Below, one piece after another: positions 7,464 to 25,143 of a DNA stretch of 35,464 nt. The stretch is from Thermoplasmata archaeon (lineage in GTDB: Archaea; Thermoplasmatota; Thermoplasmata; Lutacidiplasmatales; UBA184). Each line of letters starts with the position of its first letter. Within the stretch, counting starts at the first letter, position 1. Location of the stretch: the NCBI GenBank assembly GCA_022750155.1, contig JAKIWG010000024.1, positions 1 through 35,464 on the forward strand, given 5' to 3'. The position numbers and the translations under genes are program-made. Below the pieces are notes generated by a model. The model saw only the letters and a list, made by a program, of their open reading frames with translations, had not been told where the DNA came from and made no database searches.

Positions 7464-7891
7464 GCGCCCCGAGGGGCCCGGCGCCGGCCCTCGGGGAGGA
7501 GCTCGGAGAGCGGAGTGGGGTGGGGGGGAACTTCGGAGGGCAACGAATGCTTGGTCGTCTTCGGGGGGAACGGCCGTGCGGATCGGGCGCGTTCGATGAC
7601 CTCCGCCTTGGTCAGGACCGGGCCGGGAGACCATCGGTCGAGCTCGACGCGCGGGTCGTCGTAGGAGACGACCCACGCGGGCACCCGGACCGCCCCGATC
7701 TTTTTCAACGCCGTGAACCGGTGGTGACCGTTGAGGATGACGTGGCTGCCCTCGGCCACCCAGATCGGCTCCCGGACCACCCCCTGGCGCTCGATCTCCC
7801 TCGCCAACCGTTCGACCTGGACCGGGTCGATCTCCTCGTGGACCGAAAGCGAGGCGATCTCCAGGAGGCGGAATTCCGGGGGCTTGGTCAT
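7457..7891 (-). CDS. ParB/sulfiredoxin-superfamily protein, SerK-like
   Basis: A 144-residue protein with a ParB-like N-terminal fold. Residues 54-58 are NGHHR, the counterpart of the DGHHR motif that binds nucleotide in this superfamily, followed by LKKIGAVRVPAWVV. Residues 109-115 are PPKTTKH. From memory, the free-serine kinase SerK of Thermococcus has both a DGHHR motif and a C-terminal PKTT+H segment, so this looks like a shortened SerK relative lacking the middle domain; ParB partition proteins do not have that tail. A kinase activity is therefore possible but unproven. The gene overlaps the stop of the FAD subunit gene by 4 bases (ATGA), so it is translated as the last gene of the molybdenum hydroxylase operon, and it converges on purN. 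Confidence 0.75.
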   Translation of the reverse strand: MTKPPEFRLLEIASLSVHEEIDPVQVERLAREIERQGVVREPIWVAEGSHVILNGHHRFTALKKIGAVRVPAWVVSYDDPRVELDRWSPGPVLTKAEVIERARSARPFPPKTTKHSLPSEVPPHPTPLSELLPEGRRRAPRGAQ

Positions 7892-8871
7892 GCCGTCGCC
7901 CCCGGTCGTATGCCGGCCAGCGCGCGGCGCGTGAACACCCCGGCCATCTTCTTGCGGTAGTCGGGGGCAAGGAAGGTGTTGTGGACCGGACGGACGAGTC
8001 CGCGGAGCTTCGAGGCGACCTCCTCGATCTTCGTGTCGGTGAGCGGGGCGCCGAGCAGGGGGGACGTGAGCGCATCGAACCGGCGCGGGTAGGTCTCGAG
8101 GCCCCCGGCGGCCAGCGAGAGCTCCTCGAGGCGGTCCCCCTCCCACCGGCCCGCGGCGGCCACGCCGAGCTCGGGGAAATCGAACGAGGGCCGGACCCGA
8201 AGCTTCCGGTACGTGGACCGGCGTCGTCGCGCCGACGCCGGCAGGTGCACGGCGACCAACAGCTCACCGGGGGCGAGCCGGGTGCGCCGGATCCCATCGC
8301 CCGCCCCGTCGTAGAGCTCGCCGATGGGGACTCGCCGAGCTCCCCCGGGCCCACGGATCTCCGCCTCGGCATCGAGGACCATCAGCGCGGGGGCCAGGTC
8401 ACCGGAGAACGTCGCGTAGCACTTCTCCTTCTGGGGAACGACGTGGCACTGGTCGCCGTCGGCCTTCATGCAGAAGCCCAGGCTCTGTCGCCAGAAGTAC
8501 GACTGGTTGAAGAAGAAACATCGGGTCTCGAGGAAGAGGTTACCCCCGAGGGTCCCGCTGGCTCGGACCAGCGGGGTGGCGACCTCCCGGACCGCCTCGG
8601 CGATCGCCGGGTAGCTTCGCAGGAACTCCGGGTCGCGCTCGAGGTCGGCAAGCCGGGTCATCGCCCCGATCCGGTCGAGCGAGTGGCCCCGCAGCTCGCC
8701 CACATCCTCGAGGGCGATGAGGTGCGGACGCAGGTTGAGATGCATCTTGTAGTTGGGCAAGAGGTCGGTGCCTCCGGCTAGATAGTCGAAAGAACCGGCG
8801 TACCGGCGCGCGAGTTCCAAGGTCTCGTCCACCGACTCGGGTCGGTGCAGTTCGAACGGGTCGAGGTGCAT
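7888..8871 (-). CDS. hcrB: Xanthine oxidase-family FAD subunit, 4-hydroxybenzoyl-CoA reductase beta-like
   Basis: The FAD-binding medium subunit of a molybdenum hydroxylase, 327 residues. Family features are the FAD loop LAGGTDLLP (31-39) and the second FAD motif at about 105-111 (ASGTLGGNL). Between them and the rest of the domain sits an insertion with Cys118, Cys134, Cys142 and Cys151, giving spacing C-x15-C-x7-C-x8-C. As I recall it, that is exactly the spacing of the extra [4Fe-4S] cluster of 4-hydroxybenzoyl-CoA reductase (HcrB), where the cluster supports low-potential electron flow to the ring. Plain CO dehydrogenase or xanthine dehydrogenase FAD subunits lack it. The gene starts 2 bases after the large subunit gene and overlaps the next gene by ATGA. 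The actual substrate is inferred, not shown. Confidence 0.85.
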   Translation of the reverse strand: MHLDPFELHRPESVDETLELARRYAGSFDYLAGGTDLLPNYKMHLNLRPHLIALEDVGELRGHSLDRIGAMTRLADLERDPEFLRSYPAIAEAVREVATPLVRASGTLGGNLFLETRCFFFNQSYFWRQSLGFCMKADGDQCHVVPQKEKCYATFSGDLAPALMVLDAEAEIRGPGGARRVPIGELYDGAGDGIRRTRLAPGELLVAVHLPASARRRRSTYRKLRVRPSFDFPELGVAAAGRWEGDRLEELSLAAGGLETYPRRFDALTSPLLGAPLTDTKIEEVASKLRGLVRPVHNTFLAPDYRKKMAGVFTRRALAGIRPGATA

Positions 8872-8873
8872 GG

Positions 8874-11201
8874 TCAGGCCCCCTTCCAGGTCCGACCGGC
8901 GGCGGCCCGCTGCTCCATCCCGCGGACCACCCGGTCCGGGGTGATCGGCAGCTCGGTGAAGCGGACGCCGATGGCGTCGTAGAGGGCGTTCCCCACGGCC
9001 GGTAGGATCGCGATCAACGGTCCCTCGCCGGCCTCCTTCGCCCCGAACGGTCCCTCCGGGTCCGGGTCCCCGACGAGCAGGCACTCGACCTCGGGCATCT
9101 GCTGAGGCATGGGGATCTTGTACTCCAGCAGGGAGGGATTGAGCAGTCGGCTTCCCCGGTAGTTCATCGACTCCCCCATCACCTGGCCGAGGCCCATGTG
9201 GATCGACCCTTCGATCTGGCCCTCGACGGCGAGGCGGTTGAGCGCCCGGCCGCAGTCGAACGCCGCCCAGACCTTGGGCACCCGGTACTCCCCGGTCTCG
9301 ACGTCGACGATCACCTCGGCGACGTAGGCGCCGAAGGAGTACGCCGGAGCCGTGCCGGCCCTGGCTCCTTTGAACTCCCCGCCCATCGGGGGGGAGGTGT
9401 ACGAGCCGGTCGCGAGCAGTGCGCCCGAGCGTTCCATCGCCTTGTGGAGTGCCTCCAGGTACGACACGCCGACGTCCGGCCGGTGCCGCACGGAGATCCG
9501 CTCGTGGCCGACCTCGAGGCGCTCGGGGGGGTATCCGGTGAGGAGGGCGGCGGCGTGGACGAGCTGGTCGCGAAGGCTCTCGGCGGCCTTGCGGGTCGCG
9601 TTGCCCATCATGAACGTGACCCGGCTCGAGTAGCTTCCGAGGTCGATCGGGGAGATGTCGGAGTCGACGCGGACGACGTGCATGCGCTCCAGGTCGACCC
9701 CGAGGACTTCGGCGACGATCGCCGCCATCAGCGTGTTCGAGCCCTGGCCGATGTCCGCCTGCATGCAGTGGACGGCGATCCCCCCGTCCATGTCGACCTT
9801 CAGGTGGACGGTGCACTGCGGCATCTTCGGGGTAAAATGGATCGGACTGTTCGAGCCGGAGATGTAGAAGCTGCATCCGAGGCCGATCCCGTGGCCGTAG
9901 GGGAGCTTGCGGTGCTTGGCGTCCCATCCGCTGCGTTGGCGCGCGGCGTGTAGGCACTTGACGAAGGAGGTCGAGGTGATCCGGAATTGGTTGATGGTCG
10001 TGGAGTTCGGGGGCAGGGCGTTGAGCTCGCGGAGGGCGAACGGGTCGACGTTGAGCTGTTCCGAGAGCTCGTCGAGGGCCGTCTCGACCGAATAGCGGAT
10101 GTTCGTCCCCCCGTGGGCGCGCATCGCGCCGGAGGGGGGTTTGTTCGTGTAGACCCGGCGGCCCCGGTATCGGAAGTTCGGGACGCGGTACGGCCCCATC
10201 GAGAGGACCCCGTTGTAGTAGGTGGTGACGGTGCCGAAGGAGCTCCACGCGCCGCCGTCGATCAGGGCCTCGATGTCGTAGGCAAGGATCCGACCCTCGG
10301 CGTCGGTCGCGATCCGCACGTCGTTCTCCGTGGGATGACGGCCGTGGTTGGTCAGGAAGACGTCCTCCCGGTCGAACAGCATCTTGACCGGCCGACCCGT
10401 CTCGAGGGCGAGCGCGGCGCACGCGATCTCGTGGGGCAACGGGTCCGACTTGCCCCCGAAGCCGCCCCCGACCTCGGGCTTGATCACCCGGATCCGGTGC
10501 ATCGGGAGTCCGAGCACTTCGCTCAGGGAGCGGTGCAGGTAGTGCGGGACCTGCGTCGCGCTCCAGACGGTCAGGCGTCCGTCCGGGGTCGATTCCGCGA
10601 TGGTGACGAGCGGTTCGGTGAAGGCGTGCGTCACCCCGGAGAATCGGCCGCGGACCCGGACGAAGTGACTCGCCGTCCCCAGCGCTGCGTCGACATCGCC
10701 AAAATGCTGGACCACCTCCTTCTGAATGTTGGTGCCGTTGAGTCCCCGCGAGTGGATCGGGAACTCGACCTTCTGGACCCCCATCCGGGGGTCGTTGTAC
10801 TCCGGCAGCACCTCGTATTCGATGCGGATCGCCGCGAGGGCCCTCTCGGCGGTGAGCTCGTCGCGCGCGGCGACGGCGGCCACGATGTCGCCGATGTAGC
10901 GGACCCGGTCGACGGCGATCGCGGTCTCGTCGTGGGTGATCGGGAGTACCCCGAACTGCGTCGGATACTTTTCGCCCGTCAGGACGGCGAAGACTCCCGG
11001 CAGTCGGCGGGCCGCTTCGACGTCGACGGATCGGATCCGGGCGTGCGCGTGCGGACTTCTTAGCAGGCGTCCGACGAGCATTCCGGAACGCTTGATGTCG
11101 TCCGTGTACTCCGCCCGCCCGCTGACCTTGAGGGGGCCCTCAACGTAGGGGATCCGGCCCCCCAGCAACCGGAACTTCTGGTCGGGGGAGGCGGCGTCCA
11201 T
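8874..11201 (-). CDS. hcrA: Molybdopterin-binding large subunit, 4-hydroxybenzoyl-CoA reductase alpha-like
   Basis: The catalytic molybdenum subunit of a xanthine oxidase-family enzyme, 775 residues, full length. It begins with the family segment GGRIPYVEGPLKVSGRAEYTDD, has the Mo-cofactor loop VGGGFGGKSD, the stretch ending PSGAMRAHGGTNIRY and the SYSSRVTFMMGNA segment, and ends with GAKEAGEGP, whose glutamate is the catalytic base in the family. The YTNKPPSGAMR and SYSSR contexts and the adjoining [4Fe-4S]-type FAD subunit favour the 4-hydroxybenzoyl-CoA reductase branch over CO dehydrogenase (no Cys-Ser-Phe-Arg active-site loop is visible). The ATG at 11201 shares its A with the TGA of the small subunit. 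The likely reaction is reductive removal, or in reverse addition, of a ring hydroxyl on an aromatic CoA thioester, but other substrates remain possible. Confidence 0.88.
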   Translation of the reverse strand: MDAASPDQKFRLLGGRIPYVEGPLKVSGRAEYTDDIKRSGMLVGRLLRSPHAHARIRSVDVEAARRLPGVFAVLTGEKYPTQFGVLPITHDETAIAVDRVRYIGDIVAAVAARDELTAERALAAIRIEYEVLPEYNDPRMGVQKVEFPIHSRGLNGTNIQKEVVQHFGDVDAALGTASHFVRVRGRFSGVTHAFTEPLVTIAESTPDGRLTVWSATQVPHYLHRSLSEVLGLPMHRIRVIKPEVGGGFGGKSDPLPHEIACAALALETGRPVKMLFDREDVFLTNHGRHPTENDVRIATDAEGRILAYDIEALIDGGAWSSFGTVTTYYNGVLSMGPYRVPNFRYRGRRVYTNKPPSGAMRAHGGTNIRYSVETALDELSEQLNVDPFALRELNALPPNSTTINQFRITSTSFVKCLHAARQRSGWDAKHRKLPYGHGIGLGCSFYISGSNSPIHFTPKMPQCTVHLKVDMDGGIAVHCMQADIGQGSNTLMAAIVAEVLGVDLERMHVVRVDSDISPIDLGSYSSRVTFMMGNATRKAAESLRDQLVHAAALLTGYPPERLEVGHERISVRHRPDVGVSYLEALHKAMERSGALLATGSYTSPPMGGEFKGARAGTAPAYSFGAYVAEVIVDVETGEYRVPKVWAAFDCGRALNRLAVEGQIEGSIHMGLGQVMGESMNYRGSRLLNPSLLEYKIPMPQQMPEVECLLVGDPDPEGPFGAKEAGEGPLIAILPAVGNALYDAIGVRFTELPITPDRVVRGMEQRAAAGRTWKGA

Positions 11202-11671
11202 CACGCCACCCGGCTCGCCGCCTCGATGGCGTCGAGGATCTTCGAGTAGCCCGTGCATCGGCATAGGTTGCCCGCCACGGCCGAGGCGATCTCCCCGCGG
11301 GAGGGGTGCGGATTCTCCCGCAGCAGTGCGCCGGCGGTCATGATGAATCCGGGCGTGCAGAACCCGCACTGGGTCGCCCCGAGATCGACGAACGCCTTCT
11401 GCAGAGGACTCAGCCCGGAGGCGGGCGTGACTCCCTCGATCGTGGTCACTTCTCGTCCCCCGGCCAGAAGCGCGAGGGTCAGGCAGGAAAGGACGGGTCG
11501 CCGATCCACCAGGACCGTGCAGCACCCGCACGTGCCGAGGTCGCACCCTCGCTTGGTCCCCGTCAGGTTGAGGTCCTCGCGCAGGAGGTCGAGGAGGATC
11601 CGCTCGGGCGGACAGACGACGTCGAGCGGGTGGCCGTTGAGCGTCAGCCTAAGCCGTGTGGGGTCCGACAT
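11201..11671 (-). CDS. hcrC: [2Fe-2S] small subunit of molybdenum hydroxylase
   Basis: The electron-transfer subunit with two [2Fe-2S] clusters, 156 residues, normal for the family. The plant-ferredoxin-like N-terminal domain has C-x4-C-x2-C-x11-C (GCDLGTCGCC to LSC), and the helical domain has C-x2-C-x31-C-x-C (QCGFC to LCRC), both complete. Electrons pass between the molybdenum site of the large subunit and the FAD/[4Fe-4S] subunit through these clusters. The start ATG lies 23 bases inside the 3' end of xdhC and its stop overlaps the large subunit start (TGATG), so the subunits are translationally coupled. Subunit order small-large-medium differs from the common CO dehydrogenase order. Confidence 0.95.
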   Translation of the reverse strand: MSDPTRLRLTLNGHPLDVVCPPERILLDLLREDLNLTGTKRGCDLGTCGCCTVLVDRRPVLSCLTLALLAGGREVTTIEGVTPASGLSPLQKAFVDLGATQCGFCTPGFIMTAGALLRENPHPSRGEIASAVAGNLCRCTGYSKILDAIEAASRVA

Positions 11672-12494
11672 GCTCCTTCACGGTGGCTCGGTGGCGTTCC
11701 GGCGTTCGGCGGGCCGGGGGATGGGTGGATTGGATCACCTCGGCGACGATCGATACGGCGATCTCGGCCGGGGACTGCGCACCGATCGGCACCCCGACGG
11801 GTGCATGGATGCGAGCGATCGTGGATGCGTTGTACCCCCGCTCCCGAAGGGTCGCGAACATGTGGGCCCGTTTCGAAGCGCTCGAGATGAGCCCGATGTA
11901 GTTCGGGAACCGGTCGAGGGAGACGGAGAGCACCTCGAGGTCCTTCATCGCGTCGTACCCCAGCAGGTAGAGGTGGGTGAACGACGCGGGATCGAACCGG
12001 TCCCACAGCTCCCCGGGTGAAGCGACCTCTCGCCGATCGGCGTGGGGGAACCGGTCCCCTCCCACCCAGTCGGGTCGGTCGTCCGCGACCGAGTGGTCGA
12101 ACTCGAGACCCGGCAGGAGCTGCGAGAGCGCATGGGCGACGTGGCCGCCCCCCCAGAGCAGCAGATTCGGGCTCGCCGGGACGAACTCCACCGCGATGTC
12201 GACGCTCCCACCGCACAGGCTCGGTAACCCTCCCGTGCGCCATTTCGCGAGGTCGAAATGGTAGAGGTCACCCCGATGTTCGCGCATCGCCTGGGCCGCG
12301 AGCTCCTTAACCCTTTCTTCGAGGGCCGCGCCCCCCACGGTCCCGATCGCGCTCCCGTCCGCGCGCACGATCATCGACGCGCCGACCTTCCCGGGTACGG
12401 AACCTACGGCCCGGACGACCGTCGCCCGGGCGAACGGCTGCCGCATCTCCATCAGACGGACCGCCTCGCGCGCCAGCTTTCGATCCGTGTTCAT
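11649..12494 (-). CDS. xdhC: XdhC/CoxI-family molybdenum cofactor maturation factor
   Basis: XdhC-family proteins bind the molybdenum cofactor, help its sulfuration and insert it into xanthine oxidase-family enzymes. This 281-residue protein has the N-terminal XdhC domain (about 1-100, with the segment GSVPGKVGASMIVRADG and the IGTVGGAALEERV motif) and a C-terminal Rossmann domain starting LLLWGGGHVAHAL (about 112) and containing the conserved YIGLISSASKR and IHAPVGVPIGAQSPAEIAVSI segments. The ATG at 12494 overlaps the mocA stop (ATGA) and is preferred over ATG 12512 inside mocA. Its position between mocA and the structural subunits makes it the dedicated maturation factor for this enzyme. 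Confidence 0.92.
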   Translation of the reverse strand: MNTDRKLAREAVRLMEMRQPFARATVVRAVGSVPGKVGASMIVRADGSAIGTVGGAALEERVKELAAQAMREHRGDLYHFDLAKWRTGGLPSLCGGSVDIAVEFVPASPNLLLWGGGHVAHALSQLLPGLEFDHSVADDRPDWVGGDRFPHADRREVASPGELWDRFDPASFTHLYLLGYDAMKDLEVLSVSLDRFPNYIGLISSASKRAHMFATLRERGYNASTIARIHAPVGVPIGAQSPAEIAVSIVAEVIQSTHPPARRTPERHRATVKEHVGPHTA

Positions 12495-13114
12495 CCCTCC
12501 CTGGAACGCCACTCGGAGAGCCGGAGGGCAAAAGCCTGTTGCGTATCGACGTTTGCGACTACGCCCGGGTCCGGTACCGGGACCCTGAGCACCTGGGGTC
12601 CGAGCCGGGGTAGCAGCACCCGGAGAGGCTCATCCGGACCGAGGGAGGCGATCATTCGCAACGCACCGGGTCGGACGAGTACGGGGTGCCCGCCCCGTTC
12701 CTGAAACGTCGGCAGGACCCAGAGGGCCATGGCGTCCGACCGGGCCCTTTCGGTGAGCGTCTTCAGCGTGGACTCCCGGACGAACGGGTGGTCGACCGGC
12801 CAGATGAGGAGGTCCGCCCCTGTTCCCATTCGCCCCAGTCCGGCCTGAACGGAGCCGGTGCGACCATCGGCCCATCCGGGGTGGCTGACGACCTCGACGC
12901 CGTTCTCCTCGAGGAGGGGTCGGACCAGGAGCTCGTGCGCTCCCACGACCGCGGCGATGGGGGAGAATCCCGCCTCGTTCGAGACGCGTGCCATGCGAAC
13001 GATCGCGGGTTCGCCGTCGATACGGGCGAGGGCCTTGGGCGTTCGGCCAAAGCGCGCAGACTCGCCGGCGGCAAGCAGCAGCGCGCCCCTCCTCCCATCG
13101 CGTTCGCCATCCAC
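12491..13114 (-). CDS. mocA: MocA-type molybdenum cofactor cytidylyltransferase-like nucleotidyltransferase
   Basis: A 207-residue NTP transferase of the MobA/MocA family. It has the nucleotide-binding start GALLLAAGESARFGRTPK (residues 10-27), then the GWADGRTGSVQAGL segment and WPVDHPFV with the metal-binding Asp, and near the C-terminus NVDT, all in the family order. Because it heads an operon for a xanthine oxidase-family enzyme, which normally uses the cytosine dinucleotide form of the cofactor, MocA (CTP) is more likely than MobA (GTP); the sequence alone does not prove the base. GTG at 13114 was chosen because a TATA-like box begins 30 bases upstream and the Rossmann motif follows at once; longer versions would run through the rps19e promoter. 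Confidence 0.85.
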   Translation of the reverse strand: MDGERDGRRGALLLAAGESARFGRTPKALARIDGEPAIVRMARVSNEAGFSPIAAVVGAHELLVRPLLEENGVEVVSHPGWADGRTGSVQAGLGRMGTGADLLIWPVDHPFVRESTLKTLTERARSDAMALWVLPTFQERGGHPVLVRPGALRMIASLGPDEPLRVLLPRLGPQVLRVPVPDPGVVANVDTQQAFALRLSEWRSREG

Positions 13115-15752: not shown

Positions 15753-17261
15753 ATGACCGAGGTGGATTACGGGACCGCTCCGGCCGCCCCCCCGCAGCGG
15801 GAACGCCACGTCCTCATCCTCGACCTTTCCAAGAGCATGCTCGCGCCGCTTCCCGACCCGGGCGGTCCGGGTCCGGAGAAGCAGAAGATCGAGGTCGCCC
15901 GTACCGCGGTCTACCGGATCCTGGAGAACGCGGAGGCGACCGGCTCGATGTTCGGCCTGGTCACCTTCACGGAGCAGGTGCGCGTCGCCGTGCCCCTCAC
16001 CGAGATCCGGCGCGAGAACCTCCCGTATGTCGAGAGCCTGATCTCGATGCTCACTCCGAGCGGGCGCTCGGCGATCTGGGATGCGCTCGCCGTCGGCGCC
16101 GACCTGCTCCGCTCCACGCATGGCGCGGTACGGGGAAACCTGGTGCTGGTCACCGACGGGTGGGACAATGCCTCCTCCCGGTTCGAGGTGCGTGACCCGG
16201 CCGCACCGGCCCCCGCGGGAAAGAAGATGGACCTCGTCCCCTACATGCTTCCCTTGGAGTCCGCGCTCACGCTACGAGTGATCGGCATCGGCAGCGGTGC
16301 CGAGCGGGACAAGGGGGTCGACTCCGGGAGGATGAACCAGTTCCTCGGCGAGCTGACCCGGCGCTCGCAGGAGCTCGGGCTCGCTCCCGAGTTCGCATAC
16401 CAGGAAGTGGTGACGGGCTCCCAGCTGTTCGCCCAGATGGTCAACGCATTCCTCGACGTCGACTACGAGGGAGTCCGGGGCCTGGATCAACTCCATCCCG
16501 AGGAGCTGGCCCGCAACGCCGCGAGCGCGGCCAAAGCCCTCAAAGAGCCCCAACAGCACGCCACGGTCTCCCGCCTCACCGGTCAGCTCGCGAGCCCGGA
16601 GTCGAAGGCCGAGATGTACTCGGAGGCTCCCGCACTCGAGGTCGACGTCCTGACCTCCCAGAACGGGGTGATCCCCCCCTACCTGCGGGAACGGTACGGC
16701 CCCCTTGGGTCGGTCATCGAGAGCTACCTTTCCCAGGAGTACACCGAGGCGCTCGACCGGCTGCGCCGGGCCGGACCGTTCCTCCCCCCGGTCACCCGGT
16801 TGTACTGGGCCGCCCGGATCCATTTCGCACGGGCGGAGGTCGTCGAAGCCGCGCGCTCTCTCCTCGAGGCGTGGGGGGAGGCCGACCAGCTTCCCGTCTC
16901 CTCCCGGGGACGCATCGTCCGACGCCTTGCGCTGTTGCAGGCGCGGATGCAGAACGACAAGGAGACGGAGACGCTCGTCCAGTTCATCGACGAAACGGAG
17001 ACACGTCTCGAGAGGGCCGACCCCAAACTCAAGGCGCGGCTTCTGGACCTGTTCTCCAAGCTGATGGAGCTGCGCGGGACCTACCAGCTCACCCAGCTGC
17101 AGCCGGGCACGGAGACGACCGACGCGGCGCACCGGCACGAAGAGGCGGTCGAGCACATCTTCGGCCTGTTGCAGGACGCCCGGTTGGAGAACACCTCGGG
17201 CGACGCCACGATCGACGGCGCCCTCGACTTCATCGAAATCTGTCTCGCGGAGATGCGTTAG
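15753..17261 (+). CDS. von Willebrand factor A domain protein
   Basis: A 502-residue soluble protein. Residues about 17-240 form a vWA domain with a metal-ion site: DLSKS (Asp24, Ser26, Ser28) and VTDGWDN (Asp135), plus the [12 protein letters not shown] strand, so the MIDAS is largely intact and metal-dependent ligand binding is likely. After about residue 250 the protein is helical and repeats short motifs such as [15 protein letters not shown] and [21 protein letters not shown], which look like TPR or similar helical repeats up to about residue 430. There is no signal peptide or membrane helix. ATG 15753 is preferred over the upstream TTG 15735. The stop codon lies inside an AGGAGG sequence that serves the GTPase gene 13 bases downstream, so the two are coupled. 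It is probably the partner-binding or adaptor subunit of the three-gene system. Confidence 0.85.
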
Positions 17262-17274
17262 GAGGCTACAGTCG

Positions 17275-18447
17275 TTGGCGGAGACCAAGAGCGGCAAAGC
17301 TCGTCGAACCCGAACGGCGTCGAAGCGGGCCCCGAAGGTCGCCCCGATCGACGCGGCGAAGATCGCCGTCGTCGGCATCCCCGCATCAGGAAAAACGACG
17401 TACTTCCGGTTCCTGTCCGGGCACTTCGGGCTCAACCTGCCGATCCTGTTCGTCCCCGCCCGTACCGACTCCGGCCCCCTGCCACTCTACGGAGACCTCG
17501 AGAATGACGTGATCCTCGAGGAGACCACCTACGAGACCACCGACCCGACTGACCCGGAGGGGAGCCTCGAGACGACCACGCGGTTCTACGTGAACCGCCC
17601 GATGGAGGACCGAAAGCGACTGTGGGTCGAGCTGGCGGCCGGGCGAGAGGAGCAGGGGGTCCTGACGAAGTACCCGCTGCCGACCAAGTACAATCAGTTC
17701 GTGGAGATGCGCATGCACTTCCGCTACGGAAGTCGCGACGGGGGACCGGGCGCCTCGCGCCCCATGATCCTCCACACTATCGACGAGGCCGGGGGGATCA
17801 TCTCCGACTACTTCACCTACGACCGGCTCTGGGTCACCGCCGCCGACGCTGAGGTCGACGAGAAGAGCTGCCGCGTCATCCCGCACTTCGACACGTGGCG
17901 CCCCGACCGCCGGGACCTGTGGCGACGGGGGCTCACACTCCTCGGGCGGTTCGTCCACGAGGCCGAGGGCCTCATCCTACTTCTCTCACCGAACCTCCCG
18001 TCGTTGCGCGACCAGGCCCAGCAGGTGAACCTCGCCCGTGGGGTGTTCCGATACGTCAAGAAGCACAACATCCCCCTCGTCATTGCCGTCAGCAAGGCCG
18101 ACAAACTGAGGGACTTCTACGGGGAGGTCGAGCAGCTCGTGCGGGACCGCACGTTCCACTCCGCCTTTGACACGTCCGACTTCCTATTGCGACGCGACGG
18201 GGCGGGGATGGGAACGATCCTCGTCGCGCAGGACGGCCGGGGCCTCAGCGCCAAGGAGGACGTCTTCCTGATCTCCTCCGCCGTGTCCACGGGCGAGGGG
18301 CACCCCTTGTTGCTCTCGGAGACCGGTATGGAAGCCCCCGCCGGCGGCTCCGACACCCTGGGGATCCCGGTCATGGTCAACACCACGCTCCCGCTCGCCC
18401 GCATCTGCGAGCGCGTGCTCGAGCGTCGGGCCACGAAGGGGGCCTGA
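17275..18447 (+). CDS. P-loop GTPase of an uncharacterised family
   Basis: A 390-residue NTPase with a complete set of GTPase motifs: P-loop GIPASGKTT (Gly34 to Thr42, Lys40), G3-like DEAGG (Asp170 to Gly174), and G4 SKAD (Ser273 to Asp276), which specifies guanine. A long insertion (about 70-160) separates P-loop and G3. The N-terminal 30 residues are basic and probably disordered. The sequence is not close to Era, EngB, Obg, Arf or dynamin. It recalls the double-GTPase (DO-GTPase2) group of bacterial conflict systems in layout, but that is from memory. TTG 17275 follows AGGAGG (17260-17265) with a 9-base spacer. The stop overlaps the ATG of the next gene (TGATG), so GTPase and coiled-coil protein are probably made in fixed ratio. 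There are no membrane segments. Confidence 0.85.
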   Translation: MAETKSGKARRTRTASKRAPKVAPIDAAKIAVVGIPASGKTTYFRFLSGHFGLNLPILFVPARTDSGPLPLYGDLENDVILEETTYETTDPTDPEGSLETTTRFYVNRPMEDRKRLWVELAAGREEQGVLTKYPLPTKYNQFVEMRMHFRYGSRDGGPGASRPMILHTIDEAGGIISDYFTYDRLWVTAADAEVDEKSCRVIPHFDTWRPDRRDLWRRGLTLLGRFVHEAEGLILLLSPNLPSLRDQAQQVNLARGVFRYVKKHNIPLVIAVSKADKLRDFYGEVEQLVRDRTFHSAFDTSDFLLRRDGAGMGTILVAQDGRGLSAKEDVFLISSAVSTGEGHPLLLSETGMEAPAGGSDTLGIPVMVNTTLPLARICERVLERRATKGA

Positions 18448-21400
18448 TGAGCATGCCCGTCGAGCCGGTTCCCCCGACGGTGGTCGGGACCGGCTCGACG
18501 GTCCCGCGCGGGGGGGCGAACACATCCCCCGTCGCCGTCGTCTGGTGCCGGCAGGTCGACAACGAGGCGGAGAGCCCAGGGTACACCACCATCCCCGAGG
18601 AATTTCCCGGACACCGGGAGACCCTCGACATCATCCGGGTCGTCGGCAACCTCACCGTCAACGTGGCCGACACCCACGACTACTGGGACCCCGACCCCTC
18701 CCAGCCCCTCTCCTACTATCCGAACCTCTTCCTATACCCGGCCTACGGCGGACGCTACACCTGTGTCGGCCGGATGTTCCTCTCCACCGAGGACCGCCCC
18801 CGACTGGGGATGAAAACCCTGGTCCTCGATACCGCTCAGCTCCTCGCCTCCGGCGAGTTCGGCCCCACGATCCTCCGATGGCACTCCTCGATGGGGGGAC
18901 CCCGCCGCGATGGGACCCGGCCGCCCCCGATCCCCGACCCCGGGCTCTACGCCACGGTGGGCGAGGGGTTCCTGTTCCACCGGGGATCGACCGACCCGGT
19001 CGTGCTCGTCGCCAGCGAACAGTGGGAGCCGGCGATGCAGGCGGTCCTGGAGATGGTCCGCGTCCTGCCCGCGTCCCTCGTCGCCCTGGGTGCGATCCTC
19101 GCGTTCCCGTACTTCCTCCCGGCCGCCAAGACCAACATGGAGGAGTTCACCGAGCAGGTCCCGCTCGCGCTCGCGGTCATGCGGGTCCCCCGCGGGGAGG
19201 CCGCCGGGGAGCGGCACGTCAAGCGGCTGAGCGCGTGGTCGTCGGCGAAGGTGACGGTCCGCGACGTCACCGACGGGGTCCCCGCTCCCAGCGGGAAAGG
19301 CAAGGACGTCGTCCCTCTCGTCCTCCAGCTTCTCCGCGACCACAACGAATCGAAGCTAGGCCCGATCGCGCAGCGGGTCGACCTCGTCGAGCTCACCCGC
19401 ATCAAAGCGCATCTCGCCGACCCCGACAAGCAGGGCGGCAAGGACCGCCGCAAGGAAATGTGGCGGATCGGCACCGCGATGGAGAGCGCGGCACTCCTGC
19501 TCCAGCGAGCCCGGGGCCGCCACATCCCGGTCAACGTGGAGACCGCCAAGCGGGCGCAGGAGTACGTCCAGGCCCGCGTGCCGCGCCCCTCGGCCGAGGA
19601 GCCGGAGGAAGCGGTGGTCATCTCCTCCTCTACCGCGCCGATCCCTGACGCGGGCGCCGCGCACCACCCGCCGTGGCTGCAGCGCCCCGAGGAGTCCCCT
19701 TCGATGGCCCGACCCGACCGGGTCGAGGTCGTACCGGTGTCGGTGAGCGACGACCCCTCCCTCCTGAAATCCGCCGCCCCGGCTCCGTTGGACACCTCCA
19801 CCCCCCCCGCCGGACCTCCAGGGCCGGCGACCGTCGCCGCGCCCGCCCGCGGCGTCGAGTCCATGAGCCCGGGCAGCGCCACTCAGCTCCGCTCCGACAT
19901 TCAGCGTGACCTCCTGCGCTTCATCGACGAGAGGCTCTCCACCCTGGCCGAGACGGCCGCCCAGAAGATCTCGGCGAGCGTCGAGGCCCGGATCGGTTCG
20001 AACCTGGCCGCCCAGACCGACACCAAGCTCAGTGTGGCCCGCCAGCAGGCGGCGGCCGAGCTCGAGCGGACGATCAAGCAGATCCAGGGAGAGGTCGCAC
20101 GGACGGTCTCCCCCGACGCGCTCGCGACCATGGACACGAGGGTGGCCGAGCGAATCTCCCGGGCCCGGCAGGAGGTCGACCAGGAGATCCGCAACGCGGT
20201 CGCGGACCTCGAGGAGCGGTTGCGGCCGGAGATCGGCGACGTCGTGGGCAGTGGGGTCGACCAACGCCTCGCGATCCTCCAGAAGCAGCTCTCCACCGAT
20301 CTCGCCAAGGCCGTGCTCGAATCCGAGGGCCGGATCCAGCAGCGCATGGTCTATGCGACCGGCGCCCCGGTCGATGCGCGGACCGACCAGAAGGTCAACG
20401 CCGCCCGCCAGCTCCTCTCCCAGGACGTGACCAAGGCGCTCGCCGATCTCGAGACCCGCCTGATCGCCAAGATCGCCCAGGCCACCTCCCAGACCGACGC
20501 ACTGCAATCGGAGGGGGCCGAATCGCTCCGCACGGGACTCGAGCGCCGCCTGAGCGAGACGATCGAGGGCCAGAACCGTGCGATCACCGCCGTCAGCTCA
20601 CAACTTCAGCAGCGATTCCAGGAGAGCGAGGCGAAACAGGTTCAGTTCTCCCAGTCCCAGGGACCGGTGATCGACCAGAAGGTCCGCGACGCCCTTCAGA
20701 GCGCCCTCGGTCAGGAGGTTGAAAAGCGTCTGCAGGCAGCCCTCGACCCGAAGTTCAAGGAGGCGGCCGCCCGAGCGGACGTCGCGGCCCAGCAGGCCGT
20801 CGCCGGGATCGTCGCGAACGCACGCGGTGAGGTGACCAAAGCCCTCGATGGGCTCAAGGCCGACATGCTGAACACCGAGGAAGAGCTCCGCTCGGCGCTC
20901 TCCGCCCAGCTCGACCTCCATTTGCGCGAGGCGGCCGACCGGGAGATCGGCGTGCGCGAGACCCTCGAAGGTCGCCTGCAGGAATCGATGACCGGCAAGG
21001 TCCTCGAGCTCGAGACGCGACGCGCCAAGGAGGTCAAGGAGCTCGAAGTGCGGCTCTCCCAGCTCCTCGACGGCCGACAGCGGGAGGCCTCCGATCGCCT
21101 GATGGCCCTGGTCAAGGACCAGCAGACCCGTCTGGGGTCGGTGGTCGAGGAACGGGTCCAGGGCACCGAGAGCCGCCTGTCGAACCGCGCCGAGGCCCGC
21201 CTCAGCGAGATCCAGGAGGCCCAGGTACACTCCACGGCGGACCTGCAGGTCCGCATGCAATCCTACTTCGACACCCGCCTACGCGAGGCGCAGGAGCGCG
21301 AGCGCGAGAAGTACATCGAGCTCATGGCCCGCCTGAAGGGCGAGATCGACACCTCGGTCCCCCGCATGATCGAGTCCCCCCGGTTCGACGCGGCGTTGCG

Positions 21401-22109
21401 GGAGCGGTTGGGGCGCAGCCTCGAGGCCCTCCGCGGCGAAGCCCAGAAACTCGTCGAGCAGCGCGTCGTGCAGGTCGAGGAGCGCCTCCGGGCTGAACAG
21501 GGGGAGGCCGTGCACCGCCTCGAGTTGCTCGAACAGGAGCTCGGCGAGCGGGGCAAGGAGCTGTTGCGGCTCGAAGAATCGATCCGCTCGGACCTCGACG
21601 AGCTCGACCGACGCACCGCGATCCTCTCCGACCGGCTCGTGCCGGTCGTCAAGAAGACCTGGTTGAGGATTGCCGAGCTCGAGAAGACGAATCCGAACAC
21701 GTCCGACCACGAGCTCCGACTGACCCAGGTCAAGCGCGACCTGGCGCGCGAGGTCCGCCGCCTCGAGGGCGAGATCACCGAGCGCACCGCGGAGCTGAGG
21801 GAACGAACCGAGACCGCGATCGCCAACCAGGGCAAGGTGTGGCTCACGCTCATCCGGCAGCTTTCCCAGCTGACGGAGGACCGGAGGGCGCTCGAGCAGG
21901 CCCGCACCAGCCAGGACGCTCCCGACATCAACCCCATGGCCCCCGAGAGCTCGAGCGGGCTCTCCGGACTCGATGACCTTCCGGACCTTTTGCCGCGCGA
22001 ACGCTCTTCGGGCCGCCACGAGGAGCCGAGCAGTCGGACGAACCTGGACGAGGAGCTCGACGACACCCAGAGCGCCCGGCGCCGGCCCCGCCGTTCCACG
22101 AGCCGTTGA
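18447..22109 (+). CDS. Giant coiled-coil protein with globular N-terminal domain (GTPase partner)
   Basis: A 1220-residue protein, the largest in the window. Residues about 25-375 are globular, beginning PVAVVWCRQVDN and containing aromatic-rich SYYPNLFLYPAYGGRYTCVG; I recognise no family, though the context is like the N-terminal domain of GTPase-associated protein 1 (GAP1) in bacterial systems. A hydrophobic stretch at about 205-230 ends in prolines and is more likely buried than membrane-spanning. Residues about 380-480 are a Pro/Ala/Ser linker. Residues about 480-1155 are an almost unbroken coiled coil with loosely repeating units (for example DxRTDQKVNAARQLL and LExRL patterns), enough for a rod on the order of 100 nm if straight. 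The tail is acidic then strongly basic (RRRPRRSTSR). It overlaps the GTPase gene by 1 base and is the last gene of the operon. Confidence 0.85.
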   Translation: MSMPVEPVPPTVVGTGSTVPRGGANTSPVAVVWCRQVDNEAESPGYTTIPEEFPGHRETLDIIRVVGNLTVNVADTHDYWDPDPSQPLSYYPNLFLYPAYGGRYTCVGRMFLSTEDRPRLGMKTLVLDTAQLLASGEFGPTILRWHSSMGGPRRDGTRPPPIPDPGLYATVGEGFLFHRGSTDPVVLVASEQWEPAMQAVLEMVRVLPASLVALGAILAFPYFLPAAKTNMEEFTEQVPLALAVMRVPRGEAAGERHVKRLSAWSSAKVTVRDVTDGVPAPSGKGKDVVPLVLQLLRDHNESKLGPIAQRVDLVELTRIKAHLADPDKQGGKDRRKEMWRIGTAMESAALLLQRARGRHIPVNVETAKRAQEYVQARVPRPSAEEPEEAVVISSSTAPIPDAGAAHHPPWLQRPEESPSMARPDRVEVVPVSVSDDPSLLKSAAPAPLDTSTPPAGPPGPATVAAPARGVESMSPGSATQLRSDIQRDLLRFIDERLSTLAETAAQKISASVEARIGSNLAAQTDTKLSVARQQAAAELERTIKQIQGEVARTVSPDALATMDTRVAERISRARQEVDQEIRNAVADLEERLRPEIGDVVGSGVDQRLAILQKQLSTDLAKAVLESEGRIQQRMVYATGAPVDARTDQKVNAARQLLSQDVTKALADLETRLIAKIAQATSQTDALQSEGAESLRTGLERRLSETIEGQNRAITAVSSQLQQRFQESEAKQVQFSQSQGPVIDQKVRDALQSALGQEVEKRLQAALDPKFKEAAARADVAAQQAVAGIVANARGEVTKALDGLKADMLNTEEELRSALSAQLDLHLREAADREIGVRETLEGRLQESMTGKVLELETRRAKEVKELEVRLSQLLDGRQREASDRLMALVKDQQTRLGSVVEERVQGTESRLSNRAEARLSEIQEAQVHSTADLQVRMQSYFDTRLREAQEREREKYIELMARLKGEIDTSVPRMIESPRFDAALRERLGRSLEALRGEAQKLVEQRVVQVEERLRAEQGEAVHRLELLEQELGERGKELLRLEESIRSDLDELDRRTAILSDRLVPVVKKTWLRIAELEKTNPNTSDHELRLTQVKRDLAREVRRLEGEITERTAELRERTETAIANQGKVWLTLIRQLSQLTEDRRALEQARTSQDAPDINPMAPESSSGLSGLDDLPDLLPRERSSGRHEEPSSRTNLDEELDDTQSARRRPRRSTSR

Positions 22110-22301: not shown

Positions 22302-23510
22302 ATGACGTCGGGCCTATCGGCGGCACCTCCCCCGGTCACCATCGTGGTCCCCCTGCCCCCCAGCTACCGCGGGGGGACGGAGGAGTACGCCTACCGGCTG
22401 GCGGCGCGCTTCGCCCGCGCGGTACCGGTCCGGATCGTGACCACGACGGTGCGCGCTACGACCGGCACCCCCTCGGTCGAGATCGGGACGATTCCGGTCA
22501 CGGCCCTACCGGGGAGGGAGCTGTTCGAGCGCCCGGTCGTCTGGGGCCTTCACGCGCGCCGAACGCTCCGCCGGCTCGTCGAGACGTCCGCACTCGTCCA
22601 ACTTCACATGCCCTTCCCGTTCATCGAGCGTCGCGTGACCTCGTGGGCCCGCTCGGCAGGGATTCCCGTGGTCCTGACCTACCACATGGATGCGGATGCG
22701 GGCGGCGGAGGGCACCCCCGACTGGCCGAGTGGGTCACGCGTGCCTATCGTTCGTTCTCCGCCGAGCCCGCCCTCGCGGCATGCGGAGCGGTCGTCTCCA
22801 ACAGCGCGGGCTACGCCCGAGCATCGCCCGTACTCTCCCGCCACCTGTCGAAGGTGAAGGTGATCGCGAAAGGCGTGGCCCCAGAGCGGCTCGGCATCGC
22901 TCCGGAGGGGAGCCCAAGGCCCCCTCGGTTGGACCCGGGCACGGCTCTCCTACCGGGCTCCACGAATCAGGAACGGCGCATCGTGTTCGTGGGTCGCCTG
23001 GTCCCGTACAAGGGGCTCGATGTGCTGCTCGATGCAATGCCGGCGATCCGTTCCGGCGAGCCCGAAGTGGTCCTCTATGTCGCCGGCAAGGGCCCCATGA
23101 GGGAGGCCCTGGAGCGGAGAAGCTCCCAGCTCGGTCTGAGTTCGTCGGTCCGGTTTCTGGGGTTCGTTCCGGACGAACGGCTCGGCGACCTCTACCGATC
23201 GGCCGACGTGGTGGCGTGCCCTTCGCTCAATCTGATGGAGTCGACGGCGACGACGCTCGAAGAGGCGGCGGCGTGCGGGACTCCCGTGCTCGGGTCGGCC
23301 TTACCCGGAGCGGACGAATCGATCCCTCACGACGGGGTCCACGGCATCCTGGTCCCTCCGGGCGATGCCACAAAGCTCGCCGAGGCGGCCGGGGCGCTGT
23401 TGGGCGCTCCTCGCCCGACCGACCCGCTGAGATACCGAACTTGGGACGATACGGCGGCCGAGTACCTGACCCTGTTCCGGGGGCTGACCGGGGCCGTGGC
23501 CCCCCCCTGA
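22302..23510 (+). CDS. GT4-family glycosyltransferase (GT-B fold)
   Basis: A 402-residue retaining glycosyltransferase of family GT4. The N-terminal Rossmann domain begins with TIVVPLPPSYRGGTEEYAYRLA, with the glycine-rich donor/acceptor loop. The C-terminal domain begins IVFVGRLVPYKGLDVLLDA (near 227) and contains GFVPDERLGDLYRSADVVACPS and the EX7E motif ESTATTLEE (Glu313 and Glu321) with CGTPVLGS after it. It likely transfers a sugar from a nucleotide donor to a lipid- or protein-linked acceptor at the inner face of the membrane; the sugar cannot be told. ATG 22302 is the clear start. No neighbouring sugar genes were found except the phosphohexomutase 7 kb away, so the context adds little. 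Confidence 0.88.
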   Translation: MTSGLSAAPPPVTIVVPLPPSYRGGTEEYAYRLAARFARAVPVRIVTTTVRATTGTPSVEIGTIPVTALPGRELFERPVVWGLHARRTLRRLVETSALVQLHMPFPFIERRVTSWARSAGIPVVLTYHMDADAGGGGHPRLAEWVTRAYRSFSAEPALAACGAVVSNSAGYARASPVLSRHLSKVKVIAKGVAPERLGIAPEGSPRPPRLDPGTALLPGSTNQERRIVFVGRLVPYKGLDVLLDAMPAIRSGEPEVVLYVAGKGPMREALERRSSQLGLSSSVRFLGFVPDERLGDLYRSADVVACPSLNLMESTATTLEEAAACGTPVLGSALPGADESIPHDGVHGILVPPGDATKLAEAAGALLGAPRPTDPLRYRTWDDTAAEYLTLFRGLTGAVAPP

Positions 23511-23737
23511 GGGGACCCACCGGCTTTCGGGGAGCCCGAATCCGGACTGGCCTCGTCAGACCGTGTCGCGATGCTCCTTCCCGAGGTCCTCTATGGGCGG
23601 ACGGATCGCGGGTCGCGTCGCCCCCGGAGCGCCGATCCGCCTCAACCGGACCGGCTCGGTGAGGGAACCCCGGACGCCGAGGAAACGGGGTCGACCGGTG
23701 GACCGAACTGAGAGGGGTGGCTACCCCCATAAGTAAG
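23511..23737. other. Intergenic region upstream of the TrmB-like regulator
   Basis: About 230 bases after the glycosyltransferase with no supported gene on either strand. At 23714-23727 there is a short inverted repeat (GGGGT, four bases, ACCCC), directly before the TATA box. It includes GCTACC (23720-23725), a half-site also present in the palindrome 32 bases downstream. Confidence 0.4.
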
Positions 23738-23745
23738 TATAAATA
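23738..23745 (+). promoter_or_regulatory. Strong TATA box upstream of the TrmB-like regulator
   Basis: TATAAATA, the best TATA match in the window, within an A/T-rich island (23731-23751). Transcription should start near 23768-23771, at the downstream edge of the palindrome. Confidence 0.75.
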
Positions 23746-23751
23746 CGCATA

Positions 23752-23768
23752 GCTACCAAGTTGGTAGC
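23752..23768. promoter_or_regulatory. Perfect 17-bp palindrome, probable operator
   Basis: GCTACCAA-G-TTGGTAGC: two 8-base arms that are exact reverse complements around one central base. It lies between the TATA box and the expected transcription start, where a bound dimer would block RNA polymerase, so it is a likely repressor site. The TrmB-like regulator encoded just downstream is the obvious candidate to bind it. Confidence 0.65.
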
Positions 23769-23803
23769 ATCGGGACGGAACAGGCGAGGTACCTCGGATC
23801 ACC

Positions 23804-23992
23804 ATGCTGGATGAGATGCGAACGACCCCGATGTGCCGACCCTGCTACGCGACCGAGAAGACCGAGGTCGCCTCCGAAACACCCCGTTCGACAGTCGCCG
23901 TCCGGAGTTCTCCGACGCCAAGGCTCCCCGAGACGATTCCGTCTCGCCCGCGCGCTCTGAACGCCACGACCCTGCGGCCCTGGGAGGCCTGA
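23804..23992 (+). CDS. Possible 62-residue leader protein with a CxxC motif
   Basis: The first ATG after the strong TATA box opens a 62-residue frame ending 5 bases before the ATG of the TrmB-like gene. It contains MCRPC (Cys-x2-Cys) and otherwise a Thr/Pro/Arg-rich, probably disordered sequence. A GAGGT sequence lies 12 bases upstream of the ATG, a poor distance. I recognise no family. It could be a real small protein, an upstream ORF that controls translation, or chance; the overlapping frame that would extend the regulator upstream (GTG 23833) is an alternative reading of the same DNA. Confidence 0.35.
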   Translation: MLDEMRTTPMCRPCYATEKTEVASETPRSTVAVRSSPTPRLPETIPSRPRALNATTLRPWEA

Positions 23993-23997
23993 TCGGG

Positions 23998-25143
23998 ATG
24001 CTCGCCCGCCAACGCCACCACGGCGCCCACCAGGGTAACCACCCCGTCAACGAGCCCTCGAACGGGAGCAAGGCGTCGGTCCCGCCACCTAACGGCTCGG
24101 GTACCCCCCCTCCGCCGGCCGATGATTCGTTCCCCCATGACCCCCTGACCGCGAGCATGGTCCACCTCGGCCTCACGCCGCACGAGGCCCAGATGTACCA
24201 TACCCTGCTCCGCCACGGCCCCTCCACCGCCCGCTATGCGATCCTCCACTCCCGGCTCGACCGCGCCACGGGATACCGGATCCTCTCCCGGCTCCGGGCC
24301 CGCGGGCTGGTCACCGCGACCGGCTACCGGCCCCAGAGGTTCGTCGCCCTGGAGGCGGCGCGCCTGCTCGACCGGATCTCCTCCCTCCTCCGTGACGAGC
24401 TCGACCTCCAGCGCATCGTGCGCGAGATCTATGTGGCGGGCCTACCGCCTCCGGCACGCGACACGAGCATGCCGATCGGGCTCACGAGCCCTCCGCCACC
24501 GACTCCGGAGCCGACCAACGGCCCGGGGTTGTCCCTCGCGTCCCGGTACCGACTTTACCCCGGCCACGAAACCATCGGCCGGTATCTCATCTCGTGCATC
24601 GGCAACGCGAAGGAGGAGGTCTCGGGGCTTTCCCGCCCCGGTACCATCCCCGAGTCGATCCGTACGGACCTCGCCCAGGCGTTGCTGGATGCGCTCAAGC
24701 GGGGGGTACGCGTCCGCCTCGTGCTCGATTACCACCCGATCGACCTCGAGTTCCTGACGACGATCCTGCGAGCCCTGCCGGAGCCCACCCCCACCCTCGA
24801 GATCCGCTTCTTCGCCCCCCAGCTGGCCCGCCTGTTCCTCATCGACCGGAGGCTCGCCCTGCGGAGCCTGGGGACGCCGGCGTGCCCGTTCCACGGACCG
24901 GACCTGGGGATCGCGTCGGAGGACCTCGAGTTCGTGCGCGTCCAGACCGCCCGCTTCCAGACCACGTGGCGCGAGGGAGTACCGATGGAAACCGCCCTCC
25001 GCTCCCCCCAGGGCTCGGTCCTGGCGCCTCCCAGCTCCTCCCAGGAGCTGCGTCACTGGGTCGAGCGCACCGCGCGCTCGGAACCCCGCGGATATCCGAT
25101 GGACGCCCTCGGCTTCCAGCCCCACCGGACGTTCCGAAGCTAG
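23998..25143 (+). CDS. TrmB-like transcriptional regulator
   Basis: A 381-residue regulator. After a low-complexity Pro/Asn/Ser N-terminus (1-45), residues about 48-125 form a winged helix of the TrmB type: LGLTPHEAQMYHTLLRHGPSTA, then RATGYRILSRLRARGLV as recognition helix and wing, followed by a helix (LLDRISSLLRDELDLQRIV). Residues about 180-330 resemble the phospholipase D-like effector domain of TrmB proteins (YLISCIGNAKEEVSGLS, ALKRGVRVRLVLDYHP, and IRFFAPQLARLFLIDRRLALRSLG) where TrmB binds sugars; the catalytic HKD motif is absent. ATG 23998 follows a GGGAGG sequence; a longer form from GTG 23833 is possible. The gene probably regulates itself through the palindrome upstream, and perhaps the glycosyltransferase before it. 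Confidence 0.8.
   Translation: MLARQRHHGAHQGNHPVNEPSNGSKASVPPPNGSGTPPPPADDSFPHDPLTASMVHLGLTPHEAQMYHTLLRHGPSTARYAILHSRLDRATGYRILSRLRARGLVTATGYRPQRFVALEAARLLDRISSLLRDELDLQRIVREIYVAGLPPPARDTSMPIGLTSPPPPTPEPTNGPGLSLASRYRLYPGHETIGRYLISCIGNAKEEVSGLSRPGTIPESIRTDLAQALLDALKRGVRVRLVLDYHPIDLEFLTTILRALPEPTPTLEIRFFAPQLARLFLIDRRLALRSLGTPACPFHGPDLGIASEDLEFVRVQTARFQTTWREGVPMETALRSPQGSVLAPPSSSQELRHWVERTARSEPRGYPMDALGFQPHRTFRS

Follow-up and report, generated by a model that had tools for sequence, protein, structure and literature searches.

What a P-loop GTPase gene does between a gene for a vWA protein and one for a very long, rod-bearing partner, and whether the three belong together, is the question raised by a locus on contig JAKIWG010000024.1 (assembly GCA_022750155.1) of a Thermoplasmata archaeon, analysed over the whole of positions 1 to 35,464 of the forward strand (35,464 nucleotides, hereafter the window). 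We find that the three genes are kept or lost as one module, and we tentatively propose, as something close to an even call, that they encode one GTP-switched tether or scaffold in which the Ras/MglA-like GTPase works together with a predicted DENN-like head in the adjoining protein. The genes and their junctions are arranged as follows:

15753..17261, plus strand: vWA protein gene (502 amino acids; N-terminal vWA domain, C-terminal half with weak TPR-like matches)
17260..17265, plus strand: AGGAGG, ribosome-binding-like, overlapping the vWA stop and preceding the TTG start (read from the sequence)
17275..18447, plus strand: P-loop GTPase gene (390 amino acids, TTG start; basic low-complexity N-terminus; Ras/MglA-like fold in the model)
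18447..22109, plus strand: head-plus-rod gene (1220 amino acids; ATG sharing one base with the GTPase stop)

Joint conservation of the three genes

A first-pass annotation had read a three-gene system at these positions, and each of its elements was recovered, namely all three open reading frames (ORFs), the 13-base gap containing AGGAGG between the vWA and GTPase genes, and the TGATG overlap (18445-18449) between the GTPase and head-plus-rod genes. Among loci L043-L136, of which 93 hold the GTPase and which include some genomes twice, the GTPase is preceded by the vWA gene in 90/90 loci holding both and followed by the head-plus-rod gene in 86/86 loci holding both, always on a shared strand; in the rest, no partner was detected within the stretch examined. 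Across the 73 named loci, vWA was detected in 70 and the head in 66. In 20 fetched neighbourhoods, where genes were predicted from codon usage by a simple caller, the three adjoin in the order vWA, GTPase, rod without exception (20/20).

Absence is joint as well. Of 103 family genomes, 75 carry both GTPase and head, six the GTPase only and 22 neither, with no genome carrying the head only; counting only the 36 genomes with a completeness of 90% or more and a contamination of 5% or less, 29 hold the head and 30 the GTPase. All six lone GTPase matches end short of the C-terminus, and four of them begin within six bases of a contig start. In five of the six examined genomes that lack the module, S17e adjoins a zinc-ribbon or nucleotidyltransferase-like gene, with none of the three genes called in between, and in the sixth (G154) the contig stops 384 bases past S17e. 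The order being constant in every locus tested, this is the opposite of the scattering among relatives that the first-pass annotation had allowed for; nor does each protein fall into a known housekeeping family, as a Pfam scan of the three window proteins recognised the vWA domain alone. Near one of the empty sites (G248; L224, 6691-7920), a gene that appears transposase-like by eye lies between aIF6 and S17e.

The distribution of the module is narrow. The GTPase has one copy in its own genome and, of 292 genomes drawn from the phylum, occurs in 12, all belonging to its own family (14 family members drawn); a profile of the head retrieved the same 12 genomes. The GTPase profile added just two weak matches in the phylum (G029, G165), which span 30 residues around the P-loop and were set aside. 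Searching 84,980 species genomes with two peptide patterns yielded 75 loci, 74 of them this GTPase gene, nearly all labelled Thermoplasmata archaeon, with one Candidatus Lutacidiplasma silvani AcS3-62, one bacterium and one Euryarchaeota; L137, the sole record belonging to a different phylum, has its match confined to the P-loop, is YchF-like by eye, and was rejected. Record titles point to the order Lutacidiplasmatales as the probable host group. These family-built patterns and profiles, which are blind to very distant relatives, detected no full-length relative beyond this Thermoplasmatota family, and the system, read from the outset as archaeal, is kept together within one archaeal family.

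The module occupies one chromosomal place in most genera. S17e lies near the vWA gene in 12/20 neighbourhoods and in the window, and the S17e-side flank is missing in groups g2 (3 loci) and g4 (1 locus), where the downstream genes are kept. Group g138 (4 loci) holds the module at a different place, with neither flank found nearby and the three-gene order still intact. Distances within the module also follow those of chromosomal markers. For 13 loci (the window and the 12 neighbourhoods of the 20 that hold the markers, the other eight being left out, and the head taken as its first 360 residues), Spearman correlations with the mean of S19e, PDCD5 and L31e were 0.82 for the GTPase, 0.77 for vWA and 0.78 for the head, values reached by 0, 3 and 1 of 2000 permutations, respectively. 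Mean identities (GTPase 0.705, head 0.597, vWA 0.572; S19e 0.662, PDCD5 0.687, L31e 0.749) place the conservation of the GTPase within the ribosomal-protein range.

Further genes of the window were also noted. The frame of aIF6 is open along its full length by tblastn. Upstream, a cluster at 7888-12512, which we take to be of the molybdenum-hydroxylase type (CO/xanthine dehydrogenase-like subunits and XdhC-like genes), is in synteny in many related loci. Downstream of the rod gene, a small treble-clef gene recurs in 12/20 neighbourhoods; in the window, a glycosyltransferase-like gene and a TrmB-like regulator gene lie between the two (22302-25143), the former having no relative in the 20 neighbourhoods and the latter a relative in L043 only.

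Sequence features and predicted folds

The motifs and domains considered below are located at the following positions:

15822..15836, plus strand: DLSKS of the metal-ion-dependent adhesion site (MIDAS), vWA residues 24-28
17374..17400, plus strand: G1/P-loop GIPASGKTT, GTPase residues 34-42 (alignments of 21 and 68 sequences)
17782..17796, plus strand: G3/Walker B DEAGG, GTPase residues 170-174 (invariant in 68/68; Gly at the Ras catalytic Gln position)
18091..18102, plus strand: G4 SKAD, GTPase residues 273-276 (S273, K274 and D276 invariant in 68 sequences)
18534..18899, plus strand: head domain 1, residues 30-151, longin-like beta-beta-alpha-beta-beta-beta-alpha (AlphaFold2 (AF2) model with DSSP, longin rows in VIA)
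18927..19280, plus strand: head domain 2, residues 161-278, alpha/beta, no Walker A by eye (AF2 model)
19317..19571, plus strand: head domain 3, residues 291-375, helical (AF2 model)
19587..19883, plus strand: Pro-rich linker, residues 381-479 (from sequence; predicted local distance difference test (pLDDT) score below 50 for residues 382-401, the last of the model)
19884..21650, plus strand: rod, residues 480-1068 (hydrophobic period about 3.73; length highly variable among orthologues)
21651..21926, plus strand: conserved C-terminal piece, residues about 1069-1160 (invariant Trp1072 and Trp1132)

The GTPase motifs G1, G3 and G4, called complete from the single sequence, proved near-invariant. 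G1 is invariant in 21/21 GTPases save for A37 (Ser in four), DEAGG and SKAD are invariant in all 21, and the motifs are kept likewise in an alignment of 68 sequences, with A37 and A275 each conserved in at least 90%. Gly174, which we take to stand where Ras has its catalytic Gln, makes help from a partner protein plausible. All library matches of the GTPase were sub-threshold (Pfam best E 0.028, NCBIfam small_GTP 0.0016, PADLOC PtuA 0.041), and MglA was the closest match to its predicted structure, which is poorly modelled; Foldseek rows for this model, mainly kinesin, had template modelling (TM) scores below 0.3 and were not used. The GTPases of two g138 loci (L054, L056) bear long Pro/Ala-rich N-terminal extensions missing from the window's protein.

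The third protein of the window gave no library match of weight. Its head, read as globular in the first-pass annotation, is indeed modelled as such by AF2 over residues 1-401 (pLDDT 83, predicted TM score 0.83), with a predicted DENN-like layout of longin, alpha/beta and helical domains. Arg109, Arg117 and Arg119 of the head are invariant. When the head model was submitted to a VIA fold search, ranks 1-6 and 8-12 were longin/DENN entries or complexes containing such proteins, with rows reaching past domain 1 for 3tw8 (191 residues), 8p0v (236), 6ekk (225) and TagF 9t0n (205); rows on domain 2 comprise a DENND1B entry over residues 26-279 and AAA+ chains over about 159-277. Foldseek placed a C9orf72:SMCR8:WDR41:ARF1 chain at rank 1 (E 2.2e-3, TM 0.20) and a Lokiarchaeal longin domain at ranks 3-4 (E 0.19-0.24). 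A fold search among viral proteins gave no useful match, and no DENN family sequence match was found for the window's protein or among the 25 families listed, out of 27, for the 21 members. A predicted longin/DENN-like head beside a Ras/MglA-like GTPase fold is compatible with the two proteins working together.

The length of the third protein ranges from 560 to 1270 residues (gene calls in the 20 fetched orthologues and the window), and despite this variation the head and the C-terminal piece with its two invariant Trp are retained; the composition of the latter points to a helical structure. For the 14 proteins with a long enough rod (six short forms and L055 left out), the pooled hydrophobic period was 3.72-3.73 on three scales, with 4.1-6.2 times the power at 3.50, and synthetic controls peaked at 3.50, 3.67 and 3.75 as designed, 3.50 being that of the heptad control. 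Single rods exceeded all 100 shuffles in 8, 13 and 6 of 14 cases depending on the scale, such that by two of the three scales several are not distinct from shuffles. Their peaks lie at 3.60-3.78 on two scales, the third placing three at 3.86-3.92, and three g138 rods peak at 3.60-3.62. Of the coiled coil of about 675 residues proposed at first reading, the helical length is therefore about right (residues 480-1068 plus the end piece to about 1160), but the heptad is not, the period being 3.73 and not 3.5. With such a period, the rod may wind into a right-handed superhelix or rest as a helix on a surface.

In the vWA protein, Pfam VWA_2 matches residues 20-136 (E 7e-10), and the same model is matched by 21/21 orthologues. 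D24, S26, S28, S106 and D135, which we assign as the MIDAS residues, are invariant in all 21 sequences, and the DxSxS together with the further metal-site Ser/Thr and Asp makes a complete MIDAS, as had been read from the sequence. TPR-type models gave weak matches in single orthologues (best ANAPC3, 0.0013).

Proposed function and rival explanations

In the tether or scaffold that we propose, the Ras/MglA-like GTPase would be the switch, and the head, with its longin, alpha/beta and helical layout, would bind it and set or read its nucleotide state. The state of the head and GTPase would in turn recruit or release the long, length-variable rod, which may hold two cellular sites at a defined spacing or lie on a membrane, and the metal site of the vWA-TPR protein would grip a target or assemble a complex. 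We infer the contact between head and GTPase, the role of the head as GTPase-activating protein, nucleotide exchange factor or effector, the reach of the rod and the target of the vWA protein.

A switch with a partner and a vWA protein is a known kind of set. DENN-module proteins (DENND1A/1B, DENND10, C9orf72-SMCR8, FLCN, Lst4 and NPRL2, with Rab, Arf or Rag), through which eukaryotes control GTPase switches in membrane traffic, share the predicted head layout and a Ras-superfamily-like GTPase neighbour, whereas here the system is prokaryotic, no sequence match was found, the head is fused to a long rod, and its gene stands in a row with those for the GTPase and vWA protein. Unlike the MglA/MglB polarity switch, the module has a GTPase with a long insert between G1 and G3, and a partner that is predicted to be longin-like instead of Roadblock and carries a rod. 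For TagF, also among the fold matches, we know of no rod and no GTPase partner. The available text of PMC5995506 describes TagF of type VI secretion as repressing secretion via Fha.

Alternatively, the module could be an archaeal, stripped-down DO-GTPase/GAP1-N2 system, a reading that we consider unlikely. The GTPase and the head would then be divergent forms of DO-GTPase2 and of GAP1-N2 plus GAP1-M, respectively, the vWA protein would be of a known partner type, and the rod would replace the effector. According to the parts available of Kaur et al. 2020 (PMC7159879), GAP1-N2 neighbourhoods can hold vWA genes and a few archaea carry such systems; the words longin, Roadblock and DENN are absent from its main text. 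In both systems the GTPase gene precedes that of a large partner, and vWA genes in some neighbourhoods and a weak similarity of GTPase profiles are further points in common. When our GTPase profile A4 was run against the 477 ORFs of eight loci, a set that holds few other GTPases, GTPases adjoining GAP1 genes took ranks 1, 2 and 4 (best E 0.0047); of these three, the one in L173 exceeds the PF19993 cut-off, that in L168 matches weakly (0.0034) and that in L169 has no match. Alignment of the GTPase with DO-GTPases by hhalign gave E 9.2e-5 and probability 59 over 80 columns including G4. By eye, the head resembles GAP1-N2/M of loci L168-L175 in strand and helix order, loops and gene position, which is a lead and not a test; Pfam confirmed GAP1-N2 in all three such bacterial proteins scanned and GAP1-M in one.

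Conversely, GAP1 is undetectable by sequence in the module. PF20013 matches nothing at an E-value of 1 or below in six genomes, the window's among them, a GAP1 search on plasmids gave no match, hhalign of the head against GAP1 stayed below probability 1 in every setting, including larger archaeal and bacterial sets, and GAP1 genes are not at the top when the head profile is run against the 477 ORFs. PF19993 appears in only 2/21 GTPases (best E 0.043, below cut-off), with none listed for the window's protein; its matches in G000, G253, G256 and G382 were rejected as other NTPases (by eye NOG1-, HflX-, HflX- and FtsY-like). The Walker B Glu is also placed differently, as DEAGG here (E171 invariant in 68/68) and as DxxGE in four aligned bacterial proteins. 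A position that is constant across most genera and a divergence like that of the markers speak against the mobile DO-GTPase/GAP1-N2 type. Among 72 neighbours, no recurrent effector family was seen. Profile comparison makes the link of the GTPase to DO-GTPases appear a little better than that of the head to GAP1, and the checks proposed in the first-pass annotation leave neither membership established.

A few observations concern GAP1-type loci themselves. PF20013 occurs in 7/291 genomes of one bacterial phylum, the source of L168-L173 and L175, and around these loci we noted by eye DO-GTPase, HEAT-repeat, vWA-like, FNIII and HSP70-like genes, the vWA-like protein of L171 having no Pfam match at E 0.1. 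A genome of the window's genus (G380; L157, 8528-11393) holds a second GTPase system, in which a gene for a protein that is GAP1-like by eye stands between two GTPase genes whose PF19993 E-values are 5e-5 and 0.09. With an E-value limit of 0.01, relatives of the middle protein occur in 33/103 genomes of the family, two of these reaching no better than 0.003-0.009. Some 5 kb downstream of the system there is an FtsZ-like gene.

It is also conceivable, if quite improbable, that the rod is a membrane-lying amphipathic helix and that the module shapes or coats membranes instead of tethering. The 11-residue helices of lipid-droplet or ESCRT-III-type proteins are models for such a rod, its period falls between 11/3 and 15/4 and not at 3.5, and apolipoprotein-like models have a few weak matches in one or two members. 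However, the period by itself does not tell a lipid face from a right-handed superhelix, and charged residues, which make up 28-41% of the rod stretches in 20 proteins, suit either.

The first-pass annotation had also raised a defence-type function. No PADLOC family was matched by more than three of the 72 neighbour proteins (mad2 having the most, sixteen others one member each); those matched include mad2, mad3, mad8, AriA, JetC and Old, and several matches probably arise via generic ATPases or methyltransferases. Pfam families of these neighbours, among the 25 of 58 listed, are mostly housekeeping. Given the marker-like divergence and the lack of a recurrent defence family, a typical (mobile) defence system is unlikely, and the fixed place in most genera weakens it further. 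Finally, a ribosome-linked or other housekeeping GTPase group, assisting ribosome assembly and hence beside S19e, L31e, aIF6 and S17e, is very improbable, as the module occurs without ribosomal neighbours in g2, g4 and g138, is missing from genomes with an intact ribosomal cluster, has been found in a single family, and would have its long rod left unexplained.

Novelty and possible implications for DENN evolution

Our literature search found no description of such a module, and no paper combining "DENN domain" and "Asgard"; in the main text of PMC9287336, which describes the Lutacidiplasmatales, words beginning with GTPase, coiled, cytoskelet, von Willebrand and vesicle are absent. As far as the literature was searched, three features are new, namely the composition, the joining of a predicted DENN-like head to a non-heptad rod, and a distribution in archaea that is all or none. 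Zhang et al. 2012 (PMC3521125) place the likely assembly of the DENN module in the eukaryotic stem lineage. A bolder reading, possible though doubtful, is that the window encodes a prokaryotic DENN-type module, in which a longin, alpha/beta and helical regulator has a Ras/MglA-like GTPase of its own encoded next to it, here in non-Asgard archaea; such modules, if GAP1-N2/M share the fold, could be a source pool of eukaryotic DENN, and with the rod and vWA protein would form a GTP-controlled tether.

If true, a DENN-like head with its own GTPase in non-Asgard archaea would move the invention of DENN back into prokaryotes, and would offer a small system for testing how a DENN-like regulator works. 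Even without the DENN link, this archaeal family, the only one as far as searched, carries an all-or-none module of GTPase, vWA protein and rod whose GTPase is conserved like a ribosomal protein.
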